Shown here: one piece after another, positions 1-5,518 of the stretch | How positions within the stretch are numbered: position 1 is the first letter of the stretch | Layout: each line of letters begins with the position of its first letter | NCBI GenBank assembly: GCA_028820945.1 | Contig: JAPPHW010000430.1 | Location: forward strand, 1 to 8,143 | DNA: 8,143 bases | Direction of reading: 5' to 3' | DNA from: Defluviicoccus sp. | Lineage (GTDB): Bacteria; Pseudomonadota; Alphaproteobacteria; MPNO01 | Program-made: the position numbers and the translations under genes | The notes under the pieces: model-generated | The model's input: only the letters and a program-made list of their open reading frames with translations | The model's database searches: none | What the model was told of the DNA's origin: nothing

Positions 1-990
1 CTGACGGATTATCGGCGGTTTCTCGCCAACGCCCGCCTCAACTGCAGCGAAAAGCAGATGGGACCGGGCTCGATCATGTTGTCCGCCGCGCCCTTTACCC
101 ATCTGTTCGGGCTCTACTCCTTCCACCTCACGCTTTACGGCGGCGGCGCGACGGCATTGCTGCCCGCGTTCAGCCCGCCGGGGCTGGTCCAGGCCGTCCG
201 GGAATTCCGGCCGAGCCACATTTTCGCGGCGCCCGCCCATATCGCTTCATGCACGGAGGCTGGGCTGCTCGACAGCGAGGCCCTCGCCCCGGTCCACTAC
301 TGCGTCGTTTCCGGAGCGAAGGCCGCGCCCGCGTTCTATCGAAAAGCACAGGAGGCGTTCGGGAACGGCCGCGTCGCGCAGCTCTGGGGCATGACGGAAT
401 GCCAATGCGGCATGTTCACACGGCCCTATGAGGACATCGAACGGGCCGCGTGGGGCTGCGGGCGGCCGAGCCCGGGGAACGAGGCGAGGGTGTGCGACGC
501 CAACGGCAAGCCGCTGCCCGCCGGCGAGGAAGGAGAGCTCCAGATCCGCGGCGCCTCCGTGTTCGGCGGCTACGACAGGAACGACGAGGCCAACGCGGCT
601 TCGTTTACCGGCGACGGCTGGTTCCGCACCGGCGACCGGGCGGTGATCGACGAAACCGGCGCGGTCTCCATCACCGGCCGCGAGAAGGACCTGATCAACC
701 GCGGCGGCGTCAAGATCAACCCGGCCGATGTGGAGGAGGCGATCGACCGGCACCCCGACATCGTCCAGTCGGCGATCGTGCCCATGCCGGATCCGGTGTT
801 GGGCGAACGATCCTGCTGCTTCGCGATTCCACGCGACGGCGCTGCGCCCCAACTCGCCGACCTCGTCGTGTGGCTCGACAGCGAAGGGATCGCCAAGCTC
901 AAATGGCCTGAACGCCTTATCCTGGTCGACGAGATGCCGCTCACCCCGACCCGGAAGGTCATCAAGGGGCGTCTCCGGATCCCCGATTGA
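1..990 (+). CDS. Acyl-CoA ligase (AMP-dependent synthetase), 5'-truncated
   Basis: This is the C-terminal 329 residues of an adenylate-forming enzyme that activates a carboxylic acid to an acyl-AMP and then a CoA thioester. The frame is open from base 1, so the gene starts upstream and the P-loop-like TSGTTG motif is not in view. Visible motifs are APFTHLFG (fragment residues 30-37), LWGMTE (128-133), GWFRTGD (206-212, with the ribose-binding Asp), GREKDLINRGGVKI (226-239, hinge and A8) and PLTPTRKVIKG near the C terminus, where K319 is the expected catalytic lysine of the A10 motif. The TRKV form of A10 and the overall style recall cyclohexanecarboxylate- and aryl-acid-CoA ligases more than long-chain FadD, but the substrate is inferred. 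It leads a four-gene + strand run and lies 15 bp before the crotonase. Confidence 0.9.
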   Translation: MTDYRRFLANARLNCSEKQMGPGSIMLSAAPFTHLFGLYSFHLTLYGGGATALLPAFSPPGLVQAVREFRPSHIFAAPAHIASCTEAGLLDSEALAPVHYCVVSGAKAAPAFYRKAQEAFGNGRVAQLWGMTECQCGMFTRPYEDIERAAWGCGRPSPGNEARVCDANGKPLPAGEEGELQIRGASVFGGYDRNDEANAASFTGDGWFRTGDRAVIDETGAVSITGREKDLINRGGVKINPADVEEAIDRHPDIVQSAIVPMPDPVLGERSCCFAIPRDGAAPQLADLVVWLDSEGIAKLKWPERLILVDEMPLTPTRKVIKGRLRIPD

Positions 991-1005
991 GCGTGGGAGC
1001 GCGCC

Positions 1006-1803
1006 GTGCAGGCATACAGGACCATCGAAGCGAATATCGATCCGCGCGGGATCGCAACCGTCGCGCTGAACCGCCCGGACCGGCGCAACGCCATTAACCC
1101 GGAAATGATGGACGAGCTGCTCGCCGCCCTGGAGCGCCTGGGCGGCGACGAAACCGTTCGGGCCATCGTGCTCAGCGGCAACGGCAAGGTGTTCTGCTCC
1201 GGCGGCGACCTCAACTGGATGCGCGATACCAGGGGCGCGACGGAAGACGAGGTGACCCGCGATTCGGCGCGCCTGCAACGGGTCTACACGGCCGCGGCGA
1301 ACTGTCCCAAGACGATCGTCGGCCGGCTGCACGGCGCCGCGATGGCGGGCGCCCTGGGTCTTGTCGCCTGTTGCGATGTCGCCATCGCGGAGAAGGAGAC
1401 CAGATTCTGCCTGTCGGAAGTGAGGATCGGCCTCGCCCCCGGGATCATCGCGGGCTTTCTGCTTCCCAAGATCGGCGCTGGCTGGTTTCGCTATCTCGCG
1501 ACCGGCGCGGTCGTTTTCGGGACCGATGTCGCGGCACGCGCGGGCTTGATACACGAGGTGGCCGAGGACACCGCCGATCTCGATGCCCGCGTGGAGGCGC
1601 ATTGCCGACTGGCGCTAGCCGCTTCGCCGGAAGCGATCGCGGGCACCAAGTCCCTGATCGCCGATCTCGGCTACGGGCCGAACCCGGCGCTGTTCCAGAC
1701 CGGGCTCGGCTGGAACGTGAAGACCCGGATGTCGGATGCCGCGCAGGAAGGCATCGGCGCATTTCTGGAACGACGCAAGGCCCGCTGGACAGTCGACGGA
1801 TAG
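1006..1803 (+). CDS. Enoyl-CoA hydratase/isomerase family protein (crotonase), methylglutaconyl-CoA hydratase-like
   Basis: A 265-residue crotonase-fold enzyme acting on an acyl-CoA, probably as a cytoplasmic hydratase or lyase. The GTG start is supported by GGGAG at 995-999, six bases upstream. The N-terminal NRPDRRNAI segment (22-30) is typical of the family. The oxyanion-hole loops are FCSGGDLNWM (63-72) and HGAAMAGALGL (109-119). The second catalytic glutamate is present as E138 in SEVRIGLAP. The position of the first glutamate (E144 of rat mitochondrial hydratase) is G118 here, a pattern I associate with methylglutaconyl-CoA hydratase-like (LiuC) members. The FCSGGDLNWM string also resembles that group. 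Its place between a CoA ligase and a Rieske oxygenase suggests that the substrate is the thioester made by the ligase, not a leucine intermediate. Exact reaction unresolved. Confidence 0.87.
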   Translation: MQAYRTIEANIDPRGIATVALNRPDRRNAINPEMMDELLAALERLGGDETVRAIVLSGNGKVFCSGGDLNWMRDTRGATEDEVTRDSARLQRVYTAAANCPKTIVGRLHGAAMAGALGLVACCDVAIAEKETRFCLSEVRIGLAPGIIAGFLLPKIGAGWFRYLATGAVVFGTDVAARAGLIHEVAEDTADLDARVEAHCRLALAASPEAIAGTKSLIADLGYGPNPALFQTGLGWNVKTRMSDAAQEGIGAFLERRKARWTVDG

Positions 1804-1830
1804 CCCTCCCGATGCCACCATGGGCGCGTT

Positions 1831-1840
1831 GGAGAGGGAG
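1831..1840 (+). promoter_or_regulatory. Ribosome binding site deciding the Rieske oxygenase start
   Basis: The purine run GGAGAGGGAG ends six bases before the ATG at 1847. In-frame ATGs at 1736 (inside the crotonase gene) and 1820 have no comparable site, and the protein from 1847 begins with the family-typical MFxKxAWYVA string. Confidence 0.75.
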
Positions 1841-1846
1841 CGCCGC

Positions 1847-2863
1847 ATGTTCGTCAAGGAAGCTTGGTACGTCGCCGCCACGGCGTCGGAGGTCGGTCGT
1901 GTGCCGCTCGCCCGCAGGGTGTGCAACGAGCCCATCGTCTTCTTCCGCAGCGAGGACGGCACCCCGCGCGCGCTGGTCGACCGATGCATCCACCGGCGCC
2001 TGCCCTTGTCGAAAGGGCAGCTCGTGGGGGACCGGCTGGTCTGCGGCTATCACGGCTTCACCTACGACGCGGAGGGCAGGTGCGTCGCCGTTCCGGGCCA
2101 GGACCGGGTGCCGCGCCGGGCCGCGGTCCGCGCCTATCCGGTCGTCGAGAAGTTCGGCTGGATCTGGGTCTGGATGGGGAAACCGGAGAAAGCGGACGCC
2201 GCGCTTCTCCCGGCAATGCCCGGGCTGGACGAGGACGGGTGGGTGCCGTTCCGGGACCGCCTCCACGTCAAGGCGCATTACCAGCTTCTGGTCGACAACC
2301 TGATCGACCTGTCGCACGAGACCTATGTGCATTCGTCCAGCATCGGGAACGATGCCGTCGCGGAAACGCCGATCGAGTCCCGCAGGGAAGGAAACGAGGT
2401 GTTCGTCGACCGCGTCATGCGGGACGTCCCGCCGCCGCCCTTCTTCGCCTCGGCGGCCGGAAGCGACGCCAACATCGACCGCTACCAGCTGGTCCACTTC
2501 CAGCCGCCCTGCTACGTCCATGTCGAGGTCCGCGCGGTGCCGCCGGGCGAGAACGACCCGAACGCCGGTGTGCGGTTCTTCGTGCTCGACTGCCTGACGC
2601 CGGAGACCGAATCCACGACCAACTATTTCTGGGCGGTGTCCCGGAATTTCCGGCTCACCGACGGCGAATTCGGCGAATGGTGGCACCGGATCGTCTGCGG
2701 CATCTTCGAGGAGGACCGCGCGATCCTCGAGGCGCAGCAGGCCTCGATAGAGGCGGACACCAGCGGGGTCCGCACGGTGGACGTAGGCATCGACGGCGGC
2801 ACGATCCTCGCCCGCCAGGTGGTCGACGGTCTGATCGCGGCGGAGAACGGCGCCGCGCCCTGA
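1847..2863 (+). CDS. Rieske non-heme iron oxygenase, vanillate O-demethylase (VanA)-type oxygenase component
   Basis: A 338-residue oxygenase alpha subunit that uses O2 and reductant to hydroxylate or oxidatively demethylate an aromatic or related ring. The N terminus MFVKEAWYVAA is characteristic of the VanA-type group. The [2Fe-2S] Rieske ligands are C47-I-H49 and C66-G-Y-H69, with 16 residues between H49 and C66. The mononuclear iron motif NLIDLSHETYVH (151-162) gives bridging D154 and ligands H157 and H162. D290 in GIFEEDRAILEAQQ is the expected third ligand. Length matches VanA-type monomers (about 330-360). No small beta subunit follows, as expected for this group. The ferredoxin-reductase partner (VanB-type) is not in this window, so electrons must come from elsewhere. 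The gene starts 43 bp after the crotonase and ends 23 bp before the bicupin. Family call is firm; the substrate is unknown. Confidence 0.93.
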   Translation: MFVKEAWYVAATASEVGRVPLARRVCNEPIVFFRSEDGTPRALVDRCIHRRLPLSKGQLVGDRLVCGYHGFTYDAEGRCVAVPGQDRVPRRAAVRAYPVVEKFGWIWVWMGKPEKADAALLPAMPGLDEDGWVPFRDRLHVKAHYQLLVDNLIDLSHETYVHSSSIGNDAVAETPIESRREGNEVFVDRVMRDVPPPPFFASAAGSDANIDRYQLVHFQPPCYVHVEVRAVPPGENDPNAGVRFFVLDCLTPETESTTNYFWAVSRNFRLTDGEFGEWWHRIVCGIFEEDRAILEAQQASIEADTSGVRTVDVGIDGGTILARQVVDGLIAAENGAAP

Positions 2864-2874
2864 TCCAGGCGAAC

Positions 2875-2880
2875 GGGGAG
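2875..2880 (+). promoter_or_regulatory. Ribosome binding site deciding the bicupin start
   Basis: GGGGAG lies six bases before the ATG at 2887. The same reading frame is open for about 1 kb upstream through the Rieske gene, so this site is what fixes the start of the bicupin at 2887. Confidence 0.75.
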
Positions 2881-2886
2881 AAGACG

Positions 2887-3906
2887 ATGGACGGAGACCC
2901 CGGACGGAAATCCGCCCCGCATCTCTACAACTACACGCGCGAGGGGTTTGCAGGCGCGCGCACGAATGTGCCGCGGGCCGGGTATTCGCCCGCCTACACG
3001 CGGATCGCAGGCGAATACGCGCCGCGCCGATTCGACATCGGGGGACTGTTCCCGATGGAGGGCCGGCCGCTCCCGGTTGCGATCCTCCAGGGCGAGGGGA
3101 TCGTTCTGGAGGCGGCGCGATACGCGGCCGCGATGGACTTCGCGATGCGCAACGTCGTCGCGGACGAAGTGCACTACATCGTCGCCGGCGGCGCGCGCCT
3201 CGAAACCGATTTCGGCGCGCTCGACGTCGCGCATGGCGATTTCGTCCTGGTTCCCCGCGCGGTGGCCTGGCGCTACGCGGGGATCGGGGAGCCGGTCCAG
3301 GCGCTGATCGCGGCTTGCGAGGCCGCGCTTGCGATCGACCCCGATCCGCCCGGGGTGCTCAATACAACGCTCGACGTGGACGAACCGGTTCCGTTCGGCG
3401 ATGCGGTGCCAGGCGCTTACGAAGTCGTGGTGCGCCACAGGGGTGGAACGACATCCTATTTCTACGAATTCGATCCGCTGGGCGGGGAGGCCGCGCGCGG
3501 GGCGCCGCAGGTTCGCCGGTTCAACATCGAAAGCGCGAAGGGGCTCGGCGTCGCCTCAGGGGGAATCCCGCCGGGACGGCTGATCGACGATGCGACGGGG
3601 CGTTCGCTCTTCTACCATTTGGGCTCGCGGCGCAGCGATCGTCCACCGATACACTGCAACGCGGATTACGACGAGATCATCGTCTATGCCAGCGGGCCGG
3701 GTGCCTATGGCGGGATGACCGTACCCGGCACGGTGGCCTGGACTCCGAAGGGTATCGCCCATCACGGCGCGGAGGAGGACGTGGCCGAGCCCTACCAGGC
3801 CTGGCTGCTGGAAACCCGCGCGAACCTCTCGATGACCGAGGCGGGCCGTTCCGTCGCCCGTCTGATGGAAACCGGGGAATACGGCATCCATCCGGCCGAC
3901 GGATAG
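2887..3906 (+). CDS. Homogentisate 1,2-dioxygenase-family bicupin (putative Fe(II) ring-cleavage dioxygenase)
   Basis: A 339-residue two-cupin protein. The N-terminal cupin covers about residues 60-135 (MRNVVADEVHYIVAG at 87-101, then a GDFVLVPR strand at 117-124). The C-terminal cupin covers about 240-310. Homogentisate dioxygenase (human HGD) binds iron through H335, E341 and H371. The matching residues here appear to be H256 (in IHCNADYDE), E263 and H293 (in AHHGAEED), with one extra residue between the first two, so iron binding and ring cleavage are plausible. Classical HGD is about 430-450 residues; this is a short divergent relative, so homogentisate itself is not a safe substrate assignment. 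No maleylacetoacetate isomerase or fumarylacetoacetase is near. It follows the Rieske gene by 23 bp, suggesting it may act on the Rieske product. Its stop lies four bases from the convergent deaminase stop. Confidence 0.8.
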   Translation: MDGDPGRKSAPHLYNYTREGFAGARTNVPRAGYSPAYTRIAGEYAPRRFDIGGLFPMEGRPLPVAILQGEGIVLEAARYAAAMDFAMRNVVADEVHYIVAGGARLETDFGALDVAHGDFVLVPRAVAWRYAGIGEPVQALIAACEAALAIDPDPPGVLNTTLDVDEPVPFGDAVPGAYEVVVRHRGGTTSYFYEFDPLGGEAARGAPQVRRFNIESAKGLGVASGGIPPGRLIDDATGRSLFYHLGSRRSDRPPIHCNADYDEIIVYASGPGAYGGMTVPGTVAWTPKGIAHHGAEEDVAEPYQAWLLETRANLSMTEAGRSVARLMETGEYGIHPADG

Positions 3907-3910
3907 CGCC

Positions 3911-4360
3911 TCAACCGAACAGCGCCGCCGCCTCGTCCTCCAGCATCGGGCCGGTGACCGCCATGCTGCGAACGCCGCGCTCGGCGACCTCGTGGCAGCG
4001 GAGGTTTATCATCGGCGGCCCGCCTTCACCCCTGATCTCGACCAGCCGCGGGTGCGAGAGCCCGAACACGATCCGGTCTAGCCCCGACCAGTAGGCCGCG
4101 ACCGCGCACATCGCGCAGGGCTCGCAGCTCGTATAGAGCGTGTAGCCACCGAGCGCGGGACCGAATTCCAGGCTCGCCGCCCGGATCAGGTTGATCTCGG
4201 CGTGGCCGGTCACGTCGCCGGTCGTCAGCATGTCGTTCTCGGCTTCGAGAACGATCTCGCCCGCGCCGTCGACCAGCACCGAGCCGAATGGCGGATTGCC
4301 GTTCACCGCCGCCCGCCGTGCCGCCGCGAAGGCCTGCCTCAACAGTTCGTCTTCACTCAT
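3911..4360 (-). CDS. Nucleoside/guanine deaminase-family zinc protein (CMP/dCMP deaminase fold)
   Basis: A 149-residue protein with the zinc deaminase signature: GHAEINLI (52-59), with H53 as zinc ligand and E55 as proton shuttle, and TSCEPCAMC (77-85), with C82 and C85 as the other ligands. NPPFGSVLVD (22-31) and AYWSGLDRIVFGLS (89-102) are typical of the GuaD/TadA branch of this fold. Members hydrolytically deaminate guanine, cytosine, adenosine in tRNA or other amino-heterocycles. It is unlikely to be the housekeeping TadA, given its accessory context, but this was not tested. The ATG at 4360 has AAGGGG about eight bases upstream. It converges on the bicupin with a four-base gap and diverges from the flavin monooxygenase across 99 bp, so it is in neither flanking + strand unit. 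Its role in the locus is unknown. Confidence 0.85.
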   Translation of the reverse strand: MSEDELLRQAFAAARRAAVNGNPPFGSVLVDGAGEIVLEAENDMLTTGDVTGHAEINLIRAASLEFGPALGGYTLYTSCEPCAMCAVAAYWSGLDRIVFGLSHPRLVEIRGEGGPPMINLRCHEVAERGVRSMAVTGPMLEDEAAALFG

Positions 4361-4459: not shown

Positions 4460-5518
4460 ATGAAATTCGGCCTGTTCTACCTGCCGACCTACCTGCCCGA
4501 GATCCGCGACGCCCATATCCATTACCACAACATGGTCGAGCAGGTCGTCTACGCCGACCGGATCGGCATCGACTACGCGTGGATGGTGGAACACCACTTC
4601 GTTCGCCATGGCGGCCTGTTGCCGGCGAATTATGCGTTCCTCTCCTACCTCGCGGGACGGACCGAGCGGATCCGGCTCGGCACCGGAGCGACCATCCTGC
4701 CGTTGAACGACCCCGTGCGGGTGGCGGAACAGGCGGCGGCGCTCGATCAGCTTTCCAAGGGGCGGTTCGATTTCGGCGTCGGGCGCGGCTTCATCCGCGA
4801 CGAGTTCGACGCCTTCGGGGTGCCGATGAAGGAAAGCCGGGAAAGGGTCGAGGAGGGCGTCGGACTAATCCGCAAAGCGTGGTCGGAGCCGACGCTCGAA
4901 TTCGACGGCGGTTTCCGGCCGGCGATGAGCGGGCTGCCGATCCTGCCACCGGTGTACCAGAAGCCGCACCCGCCGATCTGGGTCGCCTGCCTGCTGTCGC
5001 CGGAGAGCTTCGAATGGACCGCGAGGGAAGGCCACAACCTCCTCTACGTCGCCTACCACGTCGACCACGACGTCGCGGTCGAGCGCATCGGCTGGTACCG
5101 CGACGCCCTGGGGCAAGCGGGACGCCGGATCGAGGACCACGAGATCTGCTGCGTCTACCACGCCCATTTCCTCGCCGAAGGCAACGACGCCAGGTTGGAA
5201 GCGGCGGTTCACGGACCGATGAGCGAATATGCCGCCGCCGGGCTGGAAGCCACCCGCAGACCCGCCGATCCCGTCGCCTACAAGGGTTACGAGCAGCGCG
5301 ACGCCGGGCAGCGCAGGTTTACTTTCGAGTCCTACTTTCCGGGACGCGTCCTCATGGGCGGGCCCGAGCAGGCGATCGAGCGGATCCAGGTGCTGTCGGA
5401 CATCGGCATCACCCAGATCGGGATGCTGGTCGATTTCGGCTCGCTGTCCCAGGCGGAGATCATGCGCTCGCTGGAAATCTTCGGGAAGGAGGTCCTGCCC
5501 CACGTGAGGGATCTGTAG
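4460..5518 (+). CDS. LLM-class flavin-dependent oxidoreductase (bacterial luciferase-like monooxygenase)
   Basis: A 352-residue TIM-barrel flavoprotein of the luciferase-like family. These use FMNH2 (or F420H2 in some lineages) and O2 to insert an oxygen atom, for example in Baeyer-Villiger, hydroxylation or C-S/C-N cleavage reactions. The first strand is MKFGLFYLPTY. The segment YAWMVEHHF (39-47) matches the luciferase alpha-subunit WxxEHHF region. RIRLGTGATILPLNDPVRVAEQ (70-91) and the ALDQLSKGRFDFGVGRG stretch (94-110) are the conserved barrel core with the flavin-phosphate region. Length is normal for the family (about 330-380). No flavin reductase gene is visible. It stands alone on the + strand with its own 99-bp upstream region, and it ends 21 bp from the convergent VOC gene. 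The substrate cannot be inferred beyond the catabolic setting. Confidence 0.92.
   Translation: MKFGLFYLPTYLPEIRDAHIHYHNMVEQVVYADRIGIDYAWMVEHHFVRHGGLLPANYAFLSYLAGRTERIRLGTGATILPLNDPVRVAEQAAALDQLSKGRFDFGVGRGFIRDEFDAFGVPMKESRERVEEGVGLIRKAWSEPTLEFDGGFRPAMSGLPILPPVYQKPHPPIWVACLLSPESFEWTAREGHNLLYVAYHVDHDVAVERIGWYRDALGQAGRRIEDHEICCVYHAHFLAEGNDARLEAAVHGPMSEYAAAGLEATRRPADPVAYKGYEQRDAGQRRFTFESYFPGRVLMGGPEQAIERIQVLSDIGITQIGMLVDFGSLSQAEIMRSLEIFGKEVLPHVRDL

Follow-up and report, generated by a model that had tools for sequence, protein, structure and literature searches.

A probable four-gene operon of Defluviicoccus that joins a VanA-type Rieske oxygenase to a bicupin of predicted homogentisate dioxygenase fold

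The DNA analysed here, called the window below, is an 8,143-nucleotide stretch of contig JAPPHW010000430.1 from a Defluviicoccus sp. assembly (GCA_028820945.1), and it opens with four head-to-tail genes on the plus strand that probably form one small operon and probably serve the breakdown of some aromatic acid. These genes encode an acyl/aryl-coenzyme A (CoA) ligase of the AMP-binding family (positions 1-990; the 3' 329 codons only, with the 5' end beyond the window edge; Pfam PF00501 and PF13193 over cut-off), a crotonase of the enoyl-CoA hydratase family that resembles methylglutaconyl- and carboxygeranoyl-CoA hydratases (1006-1803; GTG start; PF00378, ECH_1, over cut-off), a Rieske non-heme iron oxygenase of the VanA_C type (1847-2863; PF00355 and PF19112 over cut-offs), and a 339-residue bicupin to which structure prediction and profile comparison assign the fold of homogentisate dioxygenase (HGD; 2887-3906). 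Our preferred reading, at a probability of roughly 0.4, is that this is an aromatic-acid catabolic operon of Defluviicoccus-type Alphaproteobacteria in which the Rieske enzyme acts first, the bicupin then cleaves the ring, and CoA-dependent steps follow.

The four genes are separated by gaps of 15, 43 and 23 bp (an alternative in-frame ATG of the Rieske gene at 1820 would give a crotonase-Rieske gap of 16 bp, not 43), and a purine-rich stretch lies 5' of each of the three starts within the window, those of the crotonase, Rieske and bicupin genes. A scan of the bicupin alignment against 84,980 species genomes yielded 78 loci, and the full four-gene order was present in only three of these (L001, L067 and L070), all in Defluviicoccus metagenome-assembled genomes (MAGs; G001-G003) whose four proteins are 82-94% identical to those of the window and whose gaps are nearly constant (15/43/23, 15/43/29 and 15/43/24 bp in G001, G002 and G003, respectively). 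Comparison of the three MAGs with the window gave dN/dS values indicative of purifying selection for the ligase (the part in the window, 0.09-0.11), the crotonase (0.15-0.17), the Rieske protein (0.12-0.13) and the bicupin (0.18-0.22); a chance arrangement or mis-called open reading frames (ORFs) can be ruled out from the three syntenic kin and these ratios of 0.09-0.22. The gene calls bear out the coordinates and gaps given in a first-pass annotation of this DNA, the purine-rich stretches agree with its ribosome binding sites, and the tight packing that recurs in three kin MAGs upholds the single operon it thought probable, from which we infer cotranscription. A scan of the kin locus L001 for promoters and terminators gave nothing above chance. 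Extension of the locus, upstream in kin and downstream in the window, also delimits the unit. On its 5' side, the full-length ligase gene of L001 (6533-8104, 523 residues) has a DUF2062 gene and recJ, together with genes for a glpX-type bisphosphatase and a homoserine dehydrogenase, and in the window the bicupin gene is followed by a convergent gene for a small cytidine/deoxycytidylate-type deaminase (3911-4360, minus strand). Because the DUF2062 gene and recJ lie upstream in kin and the convergent deaminase gene lies downstream in the window, the operon is taken to be these four genes and no larger.

The family assignment of the bicupin comes from structure rather than from sequence models. 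The protein has no Pfam or NCBIfam match at E<=0.001 and no match at E<=1 in a PDB sequence search, and it is unlisted by the HgmA_N Pfam model even at E<=10; three of ten family members scanned, the window protein being one of the ten, reach the HgmA_N cut-off of 20.2 (P0070, 20.7; P0028, 24.4; P0076, 25.8). The HGD-like label of the first-pass annotation, which its predicted structure and a profile comparison support, is correct as a statement about fold, since the predicted structure has the HGD bicupin fold and its match to HGD (PDB 4aq2 and 1ey2; 16-19% identity in the fold alignment) is well above that to other cupins. The candidate iron ligands His256, Asp262 or Glu263, and His292 are invariant in 42 of 42 alignment rows and, as judged from the alignment, would supply the 2-His-1-carboxylate set of HGD. 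The histidine of the WHG motif is catalytic in HGD, and the bicupin column that hhalign places opposite it (residue 204) is histidine in one of 42 rows. Because this histidine is absent, it is the fold and the putative ligands that argue for ring cleavage. The possibility that the bicupin is HGD proper was rejected on the missing WHG histidine and the missing N-terminal part, the window protein being without the N-terminal ~90 residues of HGD. A separate canonical HGD gene is present in four of six kin genomes (G002, G003, G004 and G006) and was not found in G001 or G005. Family members that carry a source name are often called 'homogentisate 1,2-dioxygenase', and the motif evidence suggests a substrate other than homogentisate.

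The other three enzymes can be placed by type. The Rieske protein contains CxH (47-49), CxxH (66-69) and DxxHxxxxH (154-162) motifs, and its closest PDB entries are dicamba O-demethylase (3gb4, 160.9 bits) and 7qwt (160.0 bits), the latter being the guaiacol demethylase GdmA of Rhizorhabdus wittichii according to a review (PMC12445004). It has the domains and motifs of a vanillate O-demethylase oxygenase (VanA), with no VanB reductase gene beside it, and it falls under the cut-off of every one of the six NCBIfam models it matched. The VanA-type label of the first-pass annotation stands, more specifically as a dicamba-demethylase type. The crotonase is under the cut-offs of its best NCBIfam model (NF005675, 231.3 bits against 350) and of its second (NF004227, gamma-carboxygeranoyl-CoA hydratase, 198.2 bits against 426). 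Its nearest PDB matches are 4kpk and 3i47, with the isohexenylglutaconyl-CoA hydratase AtuE (4zu2) fifth of nine, and homologues at about 40-60% identity are source-named methylglutaconyl-CoA hydratase (among the best 120 of 1966 matches). The substrates of NF004227- and methylglutaconyl-type hydratases are gamma-carboxylated enoyl-CoAs. By sequence, then, the crotonase resembles hydratases of this class, which would fit a ring-fission acid better than a cinnamoyl-CoA. The full-length ligase of L001 is nearest in the PDB to 2,3-dihydroxybenzoate-AMP and salicylate-AMP ligases; it is under the cut-offs of all 25 NCBIfam models listed of 82, and for TIGR02275 (2,3-dihydroxybenzoate-AMP ligase) it scores 240.1 bits against a cut-off of 723.55.

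In the preferred reading, the Rieske monooxygenase would hydroxylate or O-demethylate an aryl acid to a dihydroxy-aromatic, whose ring the bicupin, acting as an HGD-fold dioxygenase with Fe(II), would open. The CoA ligase would then activate the carboxylate-bearing fission product, and the glutaconyl-type crotonase would hydrate it, replacing the isomerase and fumarylacetoacetase pair of the homogentisate route. A substrate common to the four enzymes, this order of steps and the placing of the CoA steps after cleavage are what we infer; the CoA steps are put last because of the crotonase type and because bicupins in other taxa have CoA-dependent partners (a BKACE or a crotonase). Support for the route comes from the co-directional set with its near-constant gaps and low dN/dS in three MAGs, from congruent trees, and from CoA-dependent and aromatic-acid-oxidation neighbours of bicupins elsewhere.

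Several findings weigh against this reading, besides the WHG histidine. No reductase or ferredoxin gene for the Rieske enzyme was found among 10 window genes or 10 genes around L001 that were scanned. Each genome has 16-19 FAA_hydrolase matches, and in all three MAGs one of them is on the operon contig, 11-15 kb from the bicupin gene; because such genes are present a fumarylacetoacetase-type step could still take part. The bicupin gene is cleanly absent from its site in two kin genomes, G005 (L098) and G006 (L097), in both of which recJ, the DUF2062 gene, ligase, crotonase, Rieske, deaminase, luciferase-like monooxygenase (LLM), VOC, short-chain dehydrogenase/reductase (SDR) and second crotonase genes keep their order, and the Rieske stop is 10 bp (G006) or about 4 bp (G005) from the deaminase gene. 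Since the bicupin gene alone is absent there, the ligase, crotonase and Rieske genes can persist without it. Protein searches with the bicupin, Rieske and crotonase sequences (about 8000 candidates scored each) also placed crotonase and bicupin on two long contigs (2,606,847 and 3,868,867 bp) with no Rieske gene among the best 120 of 4057 Rieske matches. A third such contig, of 11,748 bp, deserves little weight, as the rows give only the longest contig per cluster.

It is a serious, if tentative, possibility that the operon is a mosaic, in which separate modules share one promoter, the ligase and crotonase (perhaps with the Rieske enzyme) serving one acid and the bicupin another aromatic, and in which genes are swapped or lost independently. 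The clean absence of the bicupin gene in G005 and G006 is the strongest argument against a single chain in which all four genes are obligatory, and the contigs with crotonase and bicupin only, together with the different partners in other phyla, point the same way. So does a bicupin ORF (P0011) that begins MFVGNAWYVAAT, near-identical to the Rieske protein start, and that looks like a remnant of a deleted Rieske gene. What speaks for a linked set is the near-constant spacing in three MAGs and the persistence of linkage over 66-79% identity. Bicupin, Rieske and crotonase genes fall on one 1,966,106-bp contig (81, 81 and 83% identity) and on one 124,426-bp contig (66, 79 and 69%), each taken to be a single contig from equal size, so that three-gene linkage would extend down to 66% bicupin identity. 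The trees of the Rieske, crotonase and bicupin proteins were built quickly and have some weak forks; they are broadly congruent by eye, and the 124,426-bp contig lies outside the group of the window in each of them yet carries all three genes. Because this outgroup holds all three, loss of the bicupin gene in G005 and G006 is the cheaper explanation of its absence there. The conservation of gene order on which the first-pass annotation had staked its proposal therefore holds in the three MAGs and, for three of the genes, on two further contigs; it fails where the bicupin is absent, where the Rieske gene is unlisted on two long contigs, and where other partners take over elsewhere.

The full set was found in few related bacteria only, some of whose kin lack the bicupin. 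Of 27 genomes of the kin's order, three gave a bicupin match at E<=1e-20, and these are the same three MAGs (G005 and G006 are among the 27); with P0015 as query one of 385 genomes in a class sample was positive, again G001 (five or fewer candidates scored per genome among rows shown). The kin genomes are MAGs of unestablished completeness, so absences in them weigh little. A plasmid search gave nine records, each below 60% identity. The crotonase gene of G005 (L098) is frame-shifted near its 3' end, which could be an assembly error.

For bicupin neighbourhoods in other taxa, genes up to eight positions away were counted in 75 loci, the three MAGs included, and the three of the 78 without a called bicupin gene (L034, L040 and L076) were left out; the counts are approximate, as they depend on own-script gene calls and mostly on labels from cluster models, broad for SDR and crotonase families, with one or a few members checked against Pfam, NCBIfam and PDB. 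A beta-keto-acid cleavage enzyme (BKACE) relative lies beside the bicupin in 26/75 loci, Gfo/Idh/MocA in 20/75, a crotonase-family gene in 17/75 (immediately 5' of the bicupin gene in 13 of 15 Nocardia loci), a 4,5-dihydroxyphthalate-decarboxylase-like gene in 13/75, and an LLM gene and a transhydroxylase-like molybdenum enzyme in 12/75 each. The BKACE of L004 (Streptomyces) is over the Pfam cut-off and far under NCBIfam cut-offs, a further point against the preferred reading. It is conceivable, although doubtful, that short HGD-fold bicupins are a new class of ring-cleaving dioxygenase in actinobacteria, Burkholderiales, Alphaproteobacteria and other groups. Their fission products would pass to BKACE, or to a CoA ligase and glutaconyl-type crotonase, and not to maleylacetoacetate isomerase and fumarylacetoacetase, and interchangeable oxygenases (phthalate dioxygenase, VanA-type Rieske enzymes, relatives of molybdenum transhydroxylases) would feed them. 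Burkholderiales loci such as L027, L032, L035, L038 and L041 combine the bicupin with a Gfo/Idh/MocA dehydrogenase, a pyrogallol-hydroxytransferase-like molybdenum enzyme and a dihydroxyphthalate-decarboxylase relative, several also with an ABC transporter and a Peripla_BP_4 binding protein (Pfam scans covered L027 only), and look like an undescribed catabolic cluster. In L010 (Streptomyces sp. MP131-18) the bicupin gene is directly 3' of a gene for a 3291-residue protein with an adenylation-type match, which may point to a role of the family in biosynthesis.

The route favoured by the first-pass annotation, in which an aryl-alkenoic acid, once CoA-activated, would lose part of its chain through the crotonase before the resulting aryl acid is demethylated or hydroxylated and cleaved, now appears unlikely. 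The gene families are capable of it in principle, and the ligase is nearest in the PDB to aryl-acid adenylating enzymes. However, the crotonase reaches 105.5 bits with the p-hydroxycinnamoyl-CoA hydratase/lyase (feruloyl type) model NF006588, whose cut-off is 276, and the feruloyl-type shortening step was rejected on this score; the named homologues of the crotonase are methylglutaconyl-CoA hydratases, and scans of the window and L001 genes revealed no aldehyde dehydrogenase within the operon.

It is similarly improbable that the bicupin cleaves catechols of the protocatechuate class, as a cupin counterpart of LigAB or PcaGH, although VanA-type demethylation and phthalate operons both yield such compounds. 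Bicupins of 46-57% identity adjoin phthalate 3,4-dioxygenase and PhtC genes: the alpha subunit of L004, the one compared with the PDB, has phthalate 3,4-dioxygenase 9jp5 as its best match (842 bits, the next being 405), and PhtC exceeds its cut-off of 200 in five of eight loci (L002, L004, L005, L050 and L069; 350-395 bits) and under it in L057 (191), L062 (101) and L063 (101). The L027 bicupin (Burkholderiales) is also near a relative of 4,5-dihydroxyphthalate decarboxylase (453.6 bits to 9jp7). Against this, the known HGD-type enzymes require a para-dihydroxy pattern. Moreover, relatives of pcaH, pcaG and pcaB adjoin the phthalate operon in the Gordonia locus L069, which means that cleavage of the phthalate product in that locus need not fall to the bicupin, a point that also counts against the preferred reading. 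A Gordonia strain grown on phthalate esters shows ortho cleavage with its pca locus upregulated, according to PMC10333787. Lastly, it is very improbable that the bicupin uses the HGD fold for isomerisation, decarboxylation or binding, as the unconserved WHG histidine and the lack of a PDB relative by sequence might suggest, given that His256, Asp262, Glu263 and His292 are invariant across 42 diverse rows and that the fold matches HGD well above other cupins.

The four-gene operon is one among many oxygenase loci of the kin genomes. VanA_C matches, fragments included, number 37, 35 and 34 in G001-G003 and 20, 36 and 33 in G004, G005 and G006, against 0-25 in the 21 remaining genomes of the order. 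LLM matches number 49, 52 and 45 in G001, G003 and G006; paralogue expansions of a comparable kind occur in SAR202 bacteria, according to PMC6946804. Three genes of G001 in the ranges L083:2207-3660 and L083:7812-8807, some 11-17 kb 5' of the operon, stand out: one resembles arylmalonate decarboxylase (58.4 bits, cut-off 225), one is presumably an isochorismatase-type amidohydrolase, and one is related to 4,5-dihydroxyphthalate decarboxylase (233.8 bits to 9jp7). Downstream in the window, the deaminase is kept in kin and weakly TadA-like (52.4 bits, cut-off 150). It is followed by an LLM gene (4460-5518, plus strand) nearest the MupA/Atu3671 family (168 bits, cut-off 244), with 93% identity in G001-G003, G005 and G006 and 72% in G004, and then by VOC, SDR and second crotonase genes on mixed strands. 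These five genes were rejected as operon members on their mixed strands and their retention in G005 and G006 without the bicupin.

The literature searched, mainly non-subscription and accessible in part (including PMC12445004, PMC6946804, PMC10333787, PMC4250580 and PMC13040137), contained no description of the four-gene set or of the bicupin family, in line with the first-pass remark that the set is not recognisable as a described pathway. The family occurs widely, bears the sequence hallmarks of an iron dioxygenase and, where a source names a member, is often called homogentisate 1,2-dioxygenase; should its members cleave another ring, an aromatic pathway would have gone unrecognised in several genera and the automatic annotations there would be wrong. 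In G005 and G006 the bicupin alone is lacking while the rest of the operon is kept, and this offers a clean natural comparison for its contribution.

Among known systems, the actinobacterial phthalate (pht) operon adjoins bicupins of the same family, with a strong alpha-subunit match in L003, L004, L005, L050 and L069 and PhtC in L002; the window differs in that pht genes are absent, the oxygenase next to the bicupin is of the VanA Rieske type and lacks a beta subunit, and the operon has no BKACE. The methylglutaconyl- and isohexenylglutaconyl-CoA hydratases LiuC and AtuE are the nearest functionally named relatives of the crotonase, but no leucine or terpene utilisation genes were recognised beside it in scans of the window and L001. 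Compared with DdmC (3gb4) and GdmA (7qwt), the Rieske gene has no adjoining reductase or ferredoxin gene, and the protein shares with both the character of a VanA_C-type monooxygenase with Rieske and His/His motifs.

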